64,000 bases of DNA from Prostheceraeus crozeri (taxonomy: Eukaryota > Platyhelminthes > Polycladida > Euryleptidae), in assembly GCA_907163375.1 (NCBI GenBank), contig CAJQUW010007735.1, forward strand, positions 47,501 through 111,500, given 5' to 3'. The translations under genes and the position numbers were made by a program. Within the stretch, counting starts at the first letter, position 1. Each line of letters begins with the position of its first letter. Shown one piece after another: positions 1 through 39,343 of the stretch. The notes beneath the pieces are model-generated. The model had not been told where the DNA came from. It ran no database searches and saw only the letters and a program-made list of their open reading frames with translations.

Positions 1-849
1 TGATTTGAGAATGATTATTTTATATTATTAATCAAGTTTATTTGGAATTTTTATTTGCACATCACACCCAGCAGCAGTTTAGTAACCCTATTATTAATCC
101 TATTATTTAGTCGGAGGCACGGTTATTAAATCAAATTCAATGTCTGTGATTCAATAATCTTCAGTACATACCTGGAATGTGATTGTGAAATCTCTCTCTC
201 TCTCTCTCTCTCTCTCTCTCTCTCAAAAAGTTTATTGCCCATCTTGTGGGAACAAACAAGGTACATATGAAACTATTTACAGTAATGTCAATGTGAGTAG
301 CAGAAAAATTTAAGATGACAATTGATGGAATGGGTGAAATGAAAGCTAAAAACACACACTTGCACCATGAAAGCCGTTGTATGCCGTGAGTGAATTGATG
401 ATTAGGACGAAAATCTGAAAAAGTCTTGAGGTATATACAGTCAAAAGTTATGCTATGAACGAGACAATGAACGAATGAATGAATGAATGAGTCATAACAT
501 CTTTAACTAGAGGAGAGGAGACAAGCATGTATCAAAATATGTAAACATCGTTTTCATTTTGATTTGAGAATGATTATTTTATATTATTAATCAAGTTTAT
601 TTGGAATTTTTATTTGCACATCACACCCAGCAGCAGTTTAGTAACCCTATTATTAATCCTATTATTTAGTCGGAGGCACGGTTATTAAATCAAATTCAAT
701 GTCTGTGATTCAATAATCTTCAGTACATACCTGGAATGTGATTGTGAAATCTCTCTCTCTCTCTCTCTCTCTCTCTCTCTCTCTCTCTCTCTCTCTCTCT
801 CTCTCTCTCTCTCTCTCTCTCTCTCTCTCTCTCTCTCTCTCTCTCTCTC
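1..849 (-). repeat. Array block 1: partial unit plus one complete 526-bp unit with (CT)n tracts
   Basis: A partial unit (1-190) is followed by a CT tract (191-224), a complete 526-bp unit core (225-750) and a longer CT tract (751-849). On the minus strand the unit begins ATTTCACAATCACATTCCAG, is followed by GTATGT, and ends AATAAACTTTTTGAGAGA running into (GA)n. This is the layout of a retroelement 3' end with a polyadenylation signal and a microsatellite tail. Apparent small reading frames over the unit, rich in Arg-Glu repeats, are only translations of the GA tract. Confidence 0.95.
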
Positions 850-1619
850 AGAACTCAGAACTCAGAAAGTTTATTGACCAAATTTTGGTACAAACAGAGA
901 AAGTTATGTGGTGATGATAATTACTGTAACATAAAAAGAGATGAGATTTACAAAAAAATTAAGTGGATGAATGAACGAATGCGGCAACCACAACCAGGAA
1001 TGATGTCTGATTCACGATGAGGAATGATGTATATGAAGCACTTCAACGGATGTTGCGTTAGAATGAGTCTGAAAAGTTTCTGATGCACAATTAGAAATTC
1101 ACATTATGATATTATTAATGATATTATTTACAAAAATTTGAGAACGATGACATTGAGGCATGAGCATGAAATGATGACAACAAAATTACGATAGCGAGAA
1201 TGGTTATGATACATTTACAAAGGCATGAATTTCTCTCATCGCATGTTGAACATAATCATTATAGTATGCATGAGTAAATGAGCAGGAAGGATTGTCATAA
1301 ACGAATGAGGAGAGGAGGGAAATATATCTCAAAAGGATGATATGCATAGCAATTGTAATGATAAATACATGTTAATTTAAGAATTAGTAAATGTTATTAA
1401 TGTCTTATTTACCAATCACACTTCATCACAGCAGATTATTAACCCTATTATTAAATCGGAGGTTCGGTTATTAAAATCAAAAATTTTGTAAGTACAAGTA
1501 GTAGAACGTGATGTGTTCCAAGAGTCAAGAATGTAATATAGCATTCCTCTGGTGAAGCAAGAGAAACCCATGGGACAGATCACGTTCAAGAACAGAAATT
1601 CAGATGAATAATTTTACAT

Positions 1620-1715
1620 ACCTGGAATGATATGACAAAAGTTTGGTTAGTCAAATATGGAGCACGAGCGGTTGAAGTTTCCGACCTCCGATATGTAGGA
1701 ATGCTTGCAGAGTGA
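1620..1715 (-). promoter_or_regulatory. 3'-located initiator/DPE, exon-1 copy and splice donor (LINE-A copy 1)
   Basis: On the minus strand, TCACTCT (1709-1715) fits an initiator (YYANWYY). GGTCG falls at +28 to +32 from its A, the DPE position and consensus RGWYV. The 85-nt exon segment 1622-1706 ends CCAG and is followed by GTATGT, a good splice donor. The same 85 nt, with at least one substitution, is joined to ORF1 in the full-length copy at 39259-39343. Promoter activity is inferred. Confidence 0.6.
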
Positions 1716-2267
1716 GACAATTGTTGCATCGTCTATCAGTATCAGTAAACATTAATCACTCGGCACTGTTTCTTATGTCCAAGGTTATGTGGATCGATCA
1801 TTAATTATTCATTTTATTGTTTCATAGATATTGAAGTCAGTACTTGCTAAAAATCGTAATGGAATGGGCTTGATAATACATTTATTAAATAAGCAGGTTG
1901 GCATGTCAAAGTAACTGCCCATTGTTTCTTATATATGTATGGTGCGTTATCGATGAATTCATTAATGGCATGCGTCTGTCCAACCTTTTTTGTGTTCAAA
2001 GTTGCATAGAAATCGAATGTAGTTGATCAATATGACAAGTTGCGTGCATTGATGAATTTGTAAGACAGATGGAAATCCAAATGTTAACGGAATCTATTGT
2101 TTCTCAAATACATGTGATTTCATAAGTTTATGTAATGATCATCATCACACATCTGTCAACTTTTCAGGGCTTCATAGAAATCGTATCATAAGCAGTTGAT
2201 CAACTCAATGGAGCAGTCATGATAATAAAACTGAAAACTGGACAGATTGATATAGTAGATGTTATCA

Positions 2268-38205: not shown

Positions 38206-39250
38206 AAGGTTGCATTGACGAATGCATGTTATAGTTCGGATAGAGGTTACCTGGCTGAGTTGCAGGATGATTGTTCACAATTGGGAAATGATGTTGTTGA
38301 AAAGGTTGTTGATATGGCTGTGGACGCTGATGCTGCTGCGAGTATTGGTAATATGTCGGATGCTGCGGATAGGTTGGATGTTGAGGTCCGCGGAAATTGC
38401 CCCTGTTATTCCTGGTCCATCTTCCGGATTGTCTGGAGCTATAACAGTTTCGAGCGATGTGCCCGATTCGTCCGCAGGAATAGCACTTCGGTGGTGGTCT
38501 TCTCTGTTGTCTGTAATGATTGCGGGGGATTGCTTGCCTATAATGCTGGTGAGGAGGATGCTGGATCGGCTGTGGAATCTGATTGTAGGGTTTGCTATCC
38601 ACCGTTATCCTTATATCGTCGATCAGATGTTTTATTACCGTCAGTTCACTTCTTGTATCTTCTTTTTGCTTTCGTAGTAATGTGAGTACTTCGTTGTTGC
38701 TGCTATCCGTATTCTGTTGCTCTGAGCCTTGATCTTTTCTCGATCTCTCCTTTTCTTCAAATTCAGCTAGCTGTGTCTCGTACATATTTAATGAGAGGAT
38801 CATAGTTTCATTTTTTCTGCTCAATTGCAATACTTCTTCTTCCAATTTGTTTTTCTCCTCCAGGGCTCTGTCGAGGTTTTGAACCAGCTCAATCATTTCG
38901 TTTTGCTTCACCTGCAAGCGTTTCTTGTACTCGCTGAGAAGAGTAGAATTGCCATCATAGCTATTCATTTGATCCTTTACTATGGCAAATTCTTGAGGAT
39001 GTATCTTCTCAATGCATTTTGAGCATGCAAATTTTCTATGATATAGGTTTTCTTTGTAATACTTCACAATTTCAAACGGTGGGAGGTCAGTGCAACTAAA
39101 GTGCCAAAGTGTGTTGCACTTTTTGCATTCAAGAGAGCTGTCTGTTGGGACTACTTTCTCGCATTTCTCACACAAAATTTCAAGCTTTGCAAATTGGGAT
39201 GAAGGAGATGTTGGTTGATCAGTTATCGGGGTTGTTGGTGCCGCACTCAT
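38198..39250 (-). CDS. LINE-A ORF1: PHD-finger/coiled-coil/CCHC protein, intact
   Basis: A 350-residue protein starting at ATG 39250, eight bases after the leader junction. A PHD-type zinc finger lies at about residues 28-80 (CEKC, CKKC, WHFSC, CSKC). A Glu/Lys-rich coiled coil follows at about 95-180, then Gln/Pro/Tyr-rich sequence and a CCHC knuckle (CYSCGRIGHIARNC) near 255-268. It aligns along its length with LINE-B ORF1. PHD fingers bind histone tails in many proteins, so a role in chromatin targeting is possible but only inferred. It is presumed to bind element RNA with ORF2 protein. Its stop lies inside the ORF2 start region. Confidence 0.93.
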   Translation of the reverse strand: MSAAPTTPITDQPTSPSSQFAKLEILCEKCEKVVPTDSSLECKKCNTLWHFSCTDLPPFEIVKYYKENLYHRKFACSKCIEKIHPQEFAIVKDQMNSYDGNSTLLSEYKKRLQVKQNEMIELVQNLDRALEEKNKLEEEVLQLSRKNETMILSLNMYETQLAEFEEKERSRKDQGSEQQNTDSSNNEVLTLLRKQKEDTRSELTVIKHLIDDIRITVDSKPYNQIPQPIQHPPHQHYRQAIPRNHYRQQRRPPPKCYSCGRIGHIARNCYSSRQSGRWTRNNRGNFRGPQHPTYPQHPTYYQYSQQHQRPQPYQQPFQQHHFPIVNNHPATQPGNLYPNYNMHSSMQPFV

Positions 39251-39258
39251 GATGGTAT

Positions 39259-39343
39259 CTGGAATGATATGACAAAAGTTTGGTTAGTCAAATATGGAGC
39301 ACGAGCGGTTGAAGTTTCCGACCTCCGATATGAAGGAATGCTT
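39259..39343 (-). other. LINE-A 5' leader, duplicate of the 3' exon copy
   Basis: These 85 nt are identical to 34164-34248. The segment starts about +8 from the predicted initiator of the 3' copy, so the initiator itself is missing here while the DPE is kept. It is fused directly to ATACCATC-ATG of ORF1, where the 3' copy has the donor GTATGT. Its end (GACTAAC, pyrimidines, CCAG) is acceptor-like. Confidence 0.75.

Follow-up and report, generated by a model that had tools for sequence, protein, structure and literature searches.

A one-way array of LINEs in a (GA)n microsatellite of Prostheceraeus crozeri, with 3'UTR exons repeated at ORF1 starts

The array and its elements

The window analysed here is a stretch of 64,000 nucleotides from the polyclad flatworm Prostheceraeus crozeri (assembly GCA_907163375.1, contig CAJQUW010007735.1, positions 47,501 to 111,500). 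It contains an array of long interspersed nuclear elements (LINEs) lying in (GA)n microsatellite sequence, with LINE-A, LINE-B and a series of short units (Table 1). Each family carries a short exon twice, once in the 3' untranslated region (3'UTR) and once joined to the first open reading frame (ORF1), and the latter copy can come from another family. We suggest that this reflects splicing of an exon transcribed from a promoter in the 3'UTR of an element upstream.

An original prediction, made from the sequence alone, described a head-to-tail array in which all LINEs and units point the same way. Comparison by blastn confirms this for the window, with 29,754 bases of LINE and unit sequence on the minus strand and none on the plus strand. 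The elements were also held to be separated only by (GA)n. This does not hold at two places, as the 5' flank of LINE-A (from 39344) is not GA and an antisense pair of Penelope-like element (PLE) copies lies between (24770-31426). The coordinates given for the array hold, but the window cuts it; eight further co-oriented units are found to the left in the same 380-kb contig, from approximately 37.8 kb (the intervening stretch was read in part), and the array spans about 38-87 kb of the contig. Just left of the leftmost units there is ORF2-like sequence of the same group in the same orientation (L005, C6429:27501-37500, at approximately 8068-9613). No sign of a telomere was seen, the array being internal to the contig and the window having no TTAGGG pair.

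The 29 units in the window, including one cut by its edge, are 5'-truncated 3' ends of a third family, LINE-C, with a length of 525 bp. They had been considered as an independent short interspersed nuclear element, which was rejected on this identification. Aligned with one another, the 28 complete units differ in no more than 7 columns, by 5 substitutions and a variant of 2 bases at the 5' end, which makes recent tandem amplification the best reading of the unit array. Each unit retains the splice donor, the poly(A) signal and approximately 19 nt of the duplicated exon, and lacks the promoter part, so that a role of the units as promoters is not supported. Other tandem arrays of LINE-C 3' ends are present in contigs C13325, C12043 and C5292 (L007-L010), where the unit is about 2-2.3 kb and includes the promoter part.

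ORF2 of LINE-A and LINE-B matches EEP endonuclease and RVT_1, with no GIY-YIG domain. A Penelope-like identity is thereby ruled out for these LINEs, and PLE-C of Table 1 is a separate element. A PHD match was obtained with LINE-B ORF1 only (E 0.002, under the Pfam cut-off), for which the best PDB match is MLL PHD3 (E 0.0015). The CCHC match lies over the Pfam cut-off in LINE-A and slightly under it in LINE-B. A protein search with ORF2 returned 52 proteins, nearly all unnamed; 15 of the 52 were aligned, none bearing names. ORF1 gave no match at E 1e-5 among 429 candidates. Neither ORF2 nor the promoter pattern gave a relative in the viral and prokaryote genome collections, which were scanned with a few short patterns each time and from which records close to the window may have been omitted. 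By its domains the group looks like CR1/L2-type LINEs of the Jockey superfamily, with which it shares EEP and reverse transcriptase; PHD and CCHC in ORF1 (PMC4120745) would be a further point in common.

Table 1. Features of the array in the window. A slash marks a splice junction; Inr denotes the initiator.
Feature	Position	Strand	Remarks
LINE-A	39343 to ~33371	-	exon-1 copy, ORF1, open ORF2, long 3'UTR
LINE-A 5' exon 1	39259..39343	-	85/85 identical to 34164-34248; then ORF1 leader CAG/ATACCATCATG
LINE-A ORF1	38201..39250	-	CCHC knuckle; by eye, a PHD-like pattern of cysteines; 43% to LINE-B ORF1
LINE-A ORF2	34810..38274	-	EEP endonuclease + RVT_1; open, 1154 aa
LINE-A 3'UTR exon 1	34164..34255	-	Inr-like A (34255) to donor; GGTCG at +28..+32
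LINE-A splice donor GTATGT	34158..34163	-	first bases of implied intron; top donor of LINE-A
(GA)n tract 3' of LINE-A	32675..33370	-	~700 bp
LINE-C units, truncated, n=2	31575..32674	-	
PLE-C, antisense	24770..31426	+	partial tandem duplication, 4,413-bp period; GIY-YIG match weak
LINE-C unit, truncated, n=1	24150..24674	-	
LINE-B	24066 to ~18012	-	ORF2 broken in window copy
LINE-B 5' exon 1	23980..24066	-	87/87 identical to 18780-18866; directly after (GA)n
LINE-B ORF1	22878..23978	-	PHD-like + CCHC matches
LINE-B ORF2 region	19469..22918	-	at least 3 frames in window copy (broken)
LINE-B 3'UTR exon 1	18780..18869	-	Inr-like A at 18869; then donor GTAAGA
LINE-C units, truncated, near-identical, n=24	3775..17916	-	525-527 bp each + (GA)n
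LINE-A copy, 5'-truncated	850..3707	-	97.9% to 33274-36250
LINE-C units, last two	1..749	-	one cut by window edge

An exon present at both ends of each element

In each family an exon 1 of approximately 75-92 nt is present at the 5' end and again in the 3'UTR. At the 5' end it is joined directly to ORF1 (CAG/A...). The 3'UTR copy has an initiator-like motif ahead of it and a donor behind it (CAG/GTRNGN). Full-length LINE-C has the same architecture, its 5' copy continuing after the junction as AATGTCTACATC and its 3' copy as GTATGTACTG. The CAG at the end of the LINE-B 5' exon is the implied acceptor ahead of ORF1 (AATGATGAATG). An intron implied from 34163 to 23980, joining LINE-A exon 1 to LINE-B ORF1, was correctly placed by the original prediction, and starts at the best-scoring donor of LINE-A. 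Using an approximate weight matrix, the 3' donors are the best-scoring within 5,976 nt for LINE-A and 6,055 nt for LINE-B, and scores of 10 or more were reached at 2 of 24,653 positions on the minus strand to the right of the array. In the 5' copies a branch-point-like CTAAC lies 26 nt upstream of the junction in LINE-A and CTAAT 27 nt upstream in LINE-B, and pyrimidines make up 11-12 of the 15 bases upstream of both.

Just upstream of the 3' copy LINE-A and LINE-B share TCACTCTGC, followed 12 nt on by ATATCGGAGGTCG. Taking the A of TCA as +1, GGTCG lies at +28 to +32 in both. The arrangement recalls the initiator (Inr) and downstream promoter element (DPE), whose usual names and consensus sequences we use here. 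The first base of the 5' copies falls at about +2 to +4 in LINE-B, +5 to +8 in LINE-A and +2 to +7 in LINE-C, so the Inr-like core has been lost from them. The 5'-truncated LINE-A copy retains the Inr-like motif, the downstream motif and the donor in its 3' exon 1 (1622-1713). A promoter function for this part of the 3'UTR is suggested by the shared motifs and the 5'-end positions only. In the LINE Hebe a CATT initiator at the start of the element has been read as an internal 5' promoter (PMC2861651), whereas here it is the 3'UTR that holds the Inr-like motif, and the 5' copies have mostly lost it.

Beyond the donor, the 3' ends of LINE-A, LINE-B and the units have a similar hairpin around AATAAA, and then either (TTCTGAG)n, the type of 3' tandem repeat found in CR1/L2 elements, or GA directly. 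The part of the intron common to the families contains ACCG..CCTCCGAT (33996-34010), which comes close to being the reverse complement of ATCGGAGGTCGG in exon 1 (34223-34236) and could pair with it; alternatively it could be an antisense promoter motif. The 3'UTR ahead of the promoter (34256-34809 and 18870-19468) holds degenerate repeats of the ORF2 end of about 100 nt, as judged by eye, one LINE-B pair being 68% identical (19006-19232 and 19388-19635).

Exon exchange between families, and a spliced leader

We have examined other copies of these elements in the 2.05-Gb assembly. Searching with ORF2 gave at least 41 matches, with 40 of 36,375 candidates scored, and the data on genome copies are a sample. 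The type names, such as A, B, C and C2, are ours and reflect the ORF1 start together with the kind of exon. The 5' ends of 28 copies were tabulated. Left out were two with an exon 1 remnant of only 18 or 21 nt (C4917, C110), three with a GA junction and no exon (C10562, C7256, C5609), eight where the fetched stretch lacked a 5' exon (C131, C5040, C4942, C10320, C4530, C8831, C4973, C10774) and 10-kb loci without a second exon copy before ORF1 (C13325, C12043, C5292, C10000, C10250, C5269, C8465, C3769, C6620, C2705, C9056, C11088). The 3' exons in this set were located by their donor, and the GT there is not independent evidence.

For 21 of the 28 ends the element's own 3' exon is known, from the window or the genome. 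The 5' and 3' exons are alike in 12 of these (75/75 to 89/89, with at most one difference). In eight copies the 5' exon differs from the element's own 3' exon yet meets ORF1 at the same base, and for seven of the eight a match was found ahead of a donor in the 3'UTRs of other elements. Five of the 21 fit the 3' exon of another family or subfamily better than their own. They are LINE-A ORF1 with exon B2 (C6269, 89/90), B ORF1 with B3 (C9523, 85/88 against 78/88 for its own), C ORF1 with C2 (C11746, 77/78 against 55/72), C5 ORF1 with C (C12453, 80/81) and a case within the C subfamilies (C10453, 81/81 against 77/81). Three more carry exons X1, X3 and X4, unlike their own and unlike any in the first set, and the last (L019) is a mosaic of spliced leader (SL) and exon C. 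Among the seven ends whose own 3' exon is not known, three resemble the 3' exon of a related copy (83/87, 72/83 and 73/77), three have a complete spliced leader, and one has exon X2 on LINE-A ORF1. Thus LINE-A ORF1 is found with four exons, A, B2, X1 and X2.

If the X exons derive from other 3' promoters they should recur in the genome before GT, and we have put this to the test. For X1, X2 and X4 the copies were chosen by exon match alone, and the GT counts are independent. X1 has 38 matches genome-wide. Of the 23 best 20 were fetched; 14 of these run into gtgag, 5 join one ORF1 start after GA and 1 joins another ORF1. X4 has at least 40 matches (72 candidates), and 20 fetched from about the 21 best comprise 13 followed by gtgag, 5 on its own ORF1 and 2 on a further ORF1, one of these two junctions having an extra G. 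X2 likewise has at least 40 matches (69 candidates); besides the query locus, the 18 best comprise 16 followed by gtgag or gtaag and 2 at one ORF1 start, which is the start that one X1 copy joins. A donor is therefore present in all 43 of the fetched X1, X4 and X2 copies that are not at an ORF1 start, conforming to GT[GA]AG, with no GA tract in the preceding 20 nt. For X1 and X4 the term own ORF1 means that both forms lie about 5.1-5.2 kb apart in one contig (C8872 for X4), and for X2 only the ORF1 seen in both 5' copies. The two forms of X1 are about 5.1 kb apart on one strand in three contigs (C7883, C11264, C6620). Single-copy host exons are made an unlikely source of X1, X2 and X4 by this recurrence with donors. 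There is strong support for a record, in genomic DNA, of 3'UTR exons having been spliced to ORF1. The chimeric junctions of exon and ORF1 that the original prediction expected in transcripts are present as genomic copies.

We have considered whether the elements might be ordinary microsatellite-targeting LINEs, transcribed from a normal promoter at their 5' end, in which case the copy in the 3'UTR would be a relic and the array would result from recent unequal exchange of truncated copies. The near-identity of the 28 complete units fits recent tandem amplification, and neither the GA targeting nor the orientation needs a special promoter. Yet 8 of the 21 copies have a 5' exon that tracks some other 3' exon rather than the ORF family, and LINE-A ORF1 is found with four exons. 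A control LINE in the window (ORFs 55683-59596) has no 5'/3' duplication in the flanks compared (best match 27 nt, E 0.024, inverted). We consider this explanation very improbable. It is equally hard to credit a terminal repeat of the LTR (long terminal repeat) or TART kind, generated by template switching or gene conversion in the absence of splicing, with an internal promoter at the 5' copy. TART elements do carry repeats in their 5' and 3' UTRs (PMC5537684), and the mosaic of L019 might be produced in such a way. Against this, the break points in the families tested coincide with CAG/ and have a donor on their 3' side, unrelated exons meet the same base of ORF1 (the L149 junction is off by one base), the joined spliced leaders point to splicing, and a 5' copy that starts within +2 to +8 of the Inr-like A in LINE-A, B and C has lost the core of this motif.

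Three of the tabulated copies, on three ORF1 types (C2209, C13903, C12871), begin with a common 49-nt leader that ends TTGCATG at the ORF1 acceptor. This leader has 154 exact copies in the genome, some of them in tandem every 1.59 kb or so; two tandem copies were read, and both continue as GTAAGCATC, with a GTAAGC donor. We also read 18 dispersed copies. In 4 the leader runs into an ORF1 start that by eye resembles those of the LINE group, and in 1 it lies 82 nt ahead of such a start; the remaining 13 join other or unrecognised sequence. The joining of the leader at ORF1 acceptors is therefore strong evidence for use of this acceptor by the spliceosome and for trans-splicing in the host. Spliced leaders that end in ATG are known from flatworms. 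Trans-splicing has been described in Macrostomum (PMC5730564), and no mention of spliced leaders or trans-splicing was found on searching the main text of the Prostheceraeus crozieri genome paper (PMC9469890). Rfam gave no match in the window at the gathering score, and sub-threshold matches only, in three stretches bearing the spliced leader.

In the L019 mosaic (C1639, sense 2870-2937) the LINE-C 5' leader is a patchwork in which segments of exon C alternate with host spliced-leader segments, as if by repeated switching or repair between them. Among the other dispersed copies (L100, L107, L102, L112 and others) the leader is also joined to different starts (for example ATTTTCGAAGTATGACGAAGG, found in two contigs), which may belong to further groups of LINEs that have become tagged with it.

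Neighbours, orientation and a possible life cycle

Mixed orientation elsewhere, which would count against the original prediction, was looked for in 90 stretches of the genome, 70 of which have family sequence, and none is mixed by the criterion of more than 60 bases in each orientation. As many of these stretches are short, and one contig supplied several, more weight falls on the 20 longer ones and on the window; in each of these there are 0 bases in the opposite orientation. Different families lie head to tail in L011, L014, L017, L018 and L019. Of 20 5' ends, 18 have a GA tract no more than 130 nt from the junction. In L011 (sense approximately 1764-2940) and upstream of L043 an unclassified sequence starts with (ACTATGA)n beside GA; these tandem 7-mers suggest a 3' tail, from an element using GA tracts in the opposite orientation.

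We propose that this LINE group inserts into (GA)n, is transcribed from the 3'UTR promoter of an element upstream, has exon 1 spliced in cis to the downstream ORF1, and is retrotransposed with its new 5' exon. We put the probability of this reading at roughly 0.77. The duplication, the exact junctions, the donors, the exon exchange, the addition of the spliced leader and the co-orientation are seen in the DNA; we infer the promoter activity, the joining in cis rather than in trans, and the priming. LINE-A, B, C, D, E and others would insert in a single orientation because the GA tail of the RNA could prime only on the TC strand. Each element would end with the 3'UTR promoter, an exon 1 of some 75-92 nt, the donor, a hairpin around AATAAA and a GA-type tail, and would start with a splice acceptor immediately ahead of ORF1. 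Transcription from the promoter of the co-oriented element upstream would run through its 3' end and the GA tract, and exon 1 would be spliced to the downstream ORF1 from this cis donor. The mature RNA, comprising exon 1, ORF1, ORF2 and the full 3'UTR, would then be copied into a new GA site, giving a daughter with exon 1 at its 5' end and with the promoter and donor retained in its 3'UTR. The exon 1 of LINE-A and LINE-B itself holds the branch-point-like sequence, pyrimidine tract and CAG, and would rebuild the acceptor at the 5' end. An upstream element of another family would give a chimeric daughter, and an acceptor with no preceding cis donor would probably receive the host spliced leader. 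Cis splicing from the neighbour's 3'UTR promoter would be the simplest account, and it explains the regeneration of the 5' end, the self exons, the chimeras and the one-way arrays together.

A number of observations weigh against this proposal. A co-oriented family 3' end lies upstream of 9 of 27 5' ends (5 of 20 by script, C10453 by eye, and 3 of 7 by eye), and none is found upstream of the other 18, where the stretches are mostly 0.2-0.8 kb. On our model the 5' exon is a record of a past, not a present, neighbour. There is no GA directly upstream of C13234, C448 or C6066, nor of LINE-A in the window. The LINE-A and LINE-B exons agree at 59 of 83 aligned positions, barely above the maximum of 58 in 500 shuffles (mean 48), so that any argument for a conserved promoter has to lean on the motif blocks. 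Only the A and B exons show the exact DPE-like spacing; in C-type exons the motif is at +24 by eye, and an exact DPE in every family is rejected. The 3' exon of C7256 has GC where GT is expected. The 3' hairpins are weak (z -1.3 for LINE-A, -1.8 for LINE-B and -2.2 for the unit), and read-through of transcription beyond AATAAA is required. Overall, the joining of a promoter-bearing 3'UTR exon to another ORF1, which was the core of the predicted HeT-A-like logic with splicing added, is strongly supported, but a co-oriented 3' end that could serve as the cis donor is seen upstream in only those 9 of 27.

The main rival is that RNAs from the 3'UTR promoters donate exon 1 in trans, in the manner of a spliced leader, the arrays and co-orientation then reflecting target choice only. 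The spliced leader is joined at the same acceptors, the chimeras link several families, and the 18 ends with no neighbour in the stretch examined are readily accommodated. However, a free pool of exons would not favour the own-family exon found in 12 of 21 copies, an argument that is weak if RNAs of the same family are co-packaged. Nor would 3'UTR RNAs be likely to look like SL RNAs, which are short molecules bound by Sm proteins, and co-oriented neighbours of mixed family do exist. We regard joining in trans as unlikely, while taking it more seriously than the two alternatives discussed above. Returning to splicing from the upstream neighbour, we lean slightly towards the broader view that promoters and coding bodies of these LINEs are uncoupled, throughout the group, and are re-assorted by splicing from one co-oriented element to another within GA arrays, in an LTR-like but array-dependent manner, with a shared pool of 5' exons that is also fed by the host spliced leader.

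PLE-C has a GA/TC tract on either side, in which it lies in the opposite sense to the LINEs, and its own 3' end is TC-rich (31380-31430); it too may favour a GA/TC microsatellite. A second PLE in the window (46043-51755) is a 99.9% inverted repeat with 2.4-kb arms.

Parts of this arrangement are familiar from other elements. The LINEs Kibi, Koshi and Waldo target microsatellites, and the present group likewise inserts into a simple repeat, (GA)n, in fixed orientation, with the four exceptions given above. SVA elements have captured 5' sequence, a 5' exon or deletion having been gained via splicing, and introns have been reported in Penelope-like elements. We know of no use of splicing for neighbour promotion by HeT-A, and of no other group of LINEs in which the 5' end is regularly the exon of another element. 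No title on such a system was found in the open-licence literature searched. Penelope-like elements with pLTRs form tandem copies, with the promoter thought to lie within the pLTR (PMC11167929, PMC3846280); they encode GIY-YIG and a PLE reverse transcriptase, whereas here the elements are EEP LINEs and the implied intron reaches from one element into a different one. TART has perfect non-terminal repeats, with the same sequence in the 5' and 3' UTR (PMC5537684), whereas the repeat here ends exactly at a splice junction and may be that of a foreign family.

The closest parallel is with HeT-A and TAHRE of Drosophila, which have a sense promoter in the 3'UTR and one-way head-to-tail arrays in which the next element is driven by its upstream neighbour, and likewise have an LTR-like unit from promoter to promoter (PMC5537684). 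The head-to-tail arrangement in one orientation is found here too (no mixed stretch among the 70). The 3'UTRs may hold a corresponding promoter, having Inr-like and GGWCG motifs in common, with 5' ends that map just after the Inr-like A. In contrast, these elements have a splice donor and acceptor, exchange 5' exons between families, target (GA)n, encode reverse transcriptase and endonuclease, and show no sign of being at chromosome ends. By analogy this appears to be a LINE array system akin to HeT-A with splicing added, and not HeT-A itself.

If our reading is correct, these would be further, apparently independent, neighbour-promoted LINEs outside Drosophila telomeres, in which splicing rebuilds the 5' end. 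They would represent a step between LINE and LTR designs, and would explain how LINEs could change their promoters. The arrays would also hold a record in DNA of which element once stood upstream of which. The LINE copies tagged with the spliced leader suggest that host trans-splicing enters retrotransposition, and make the life of LINEs in a trans-splicing animal open to test.

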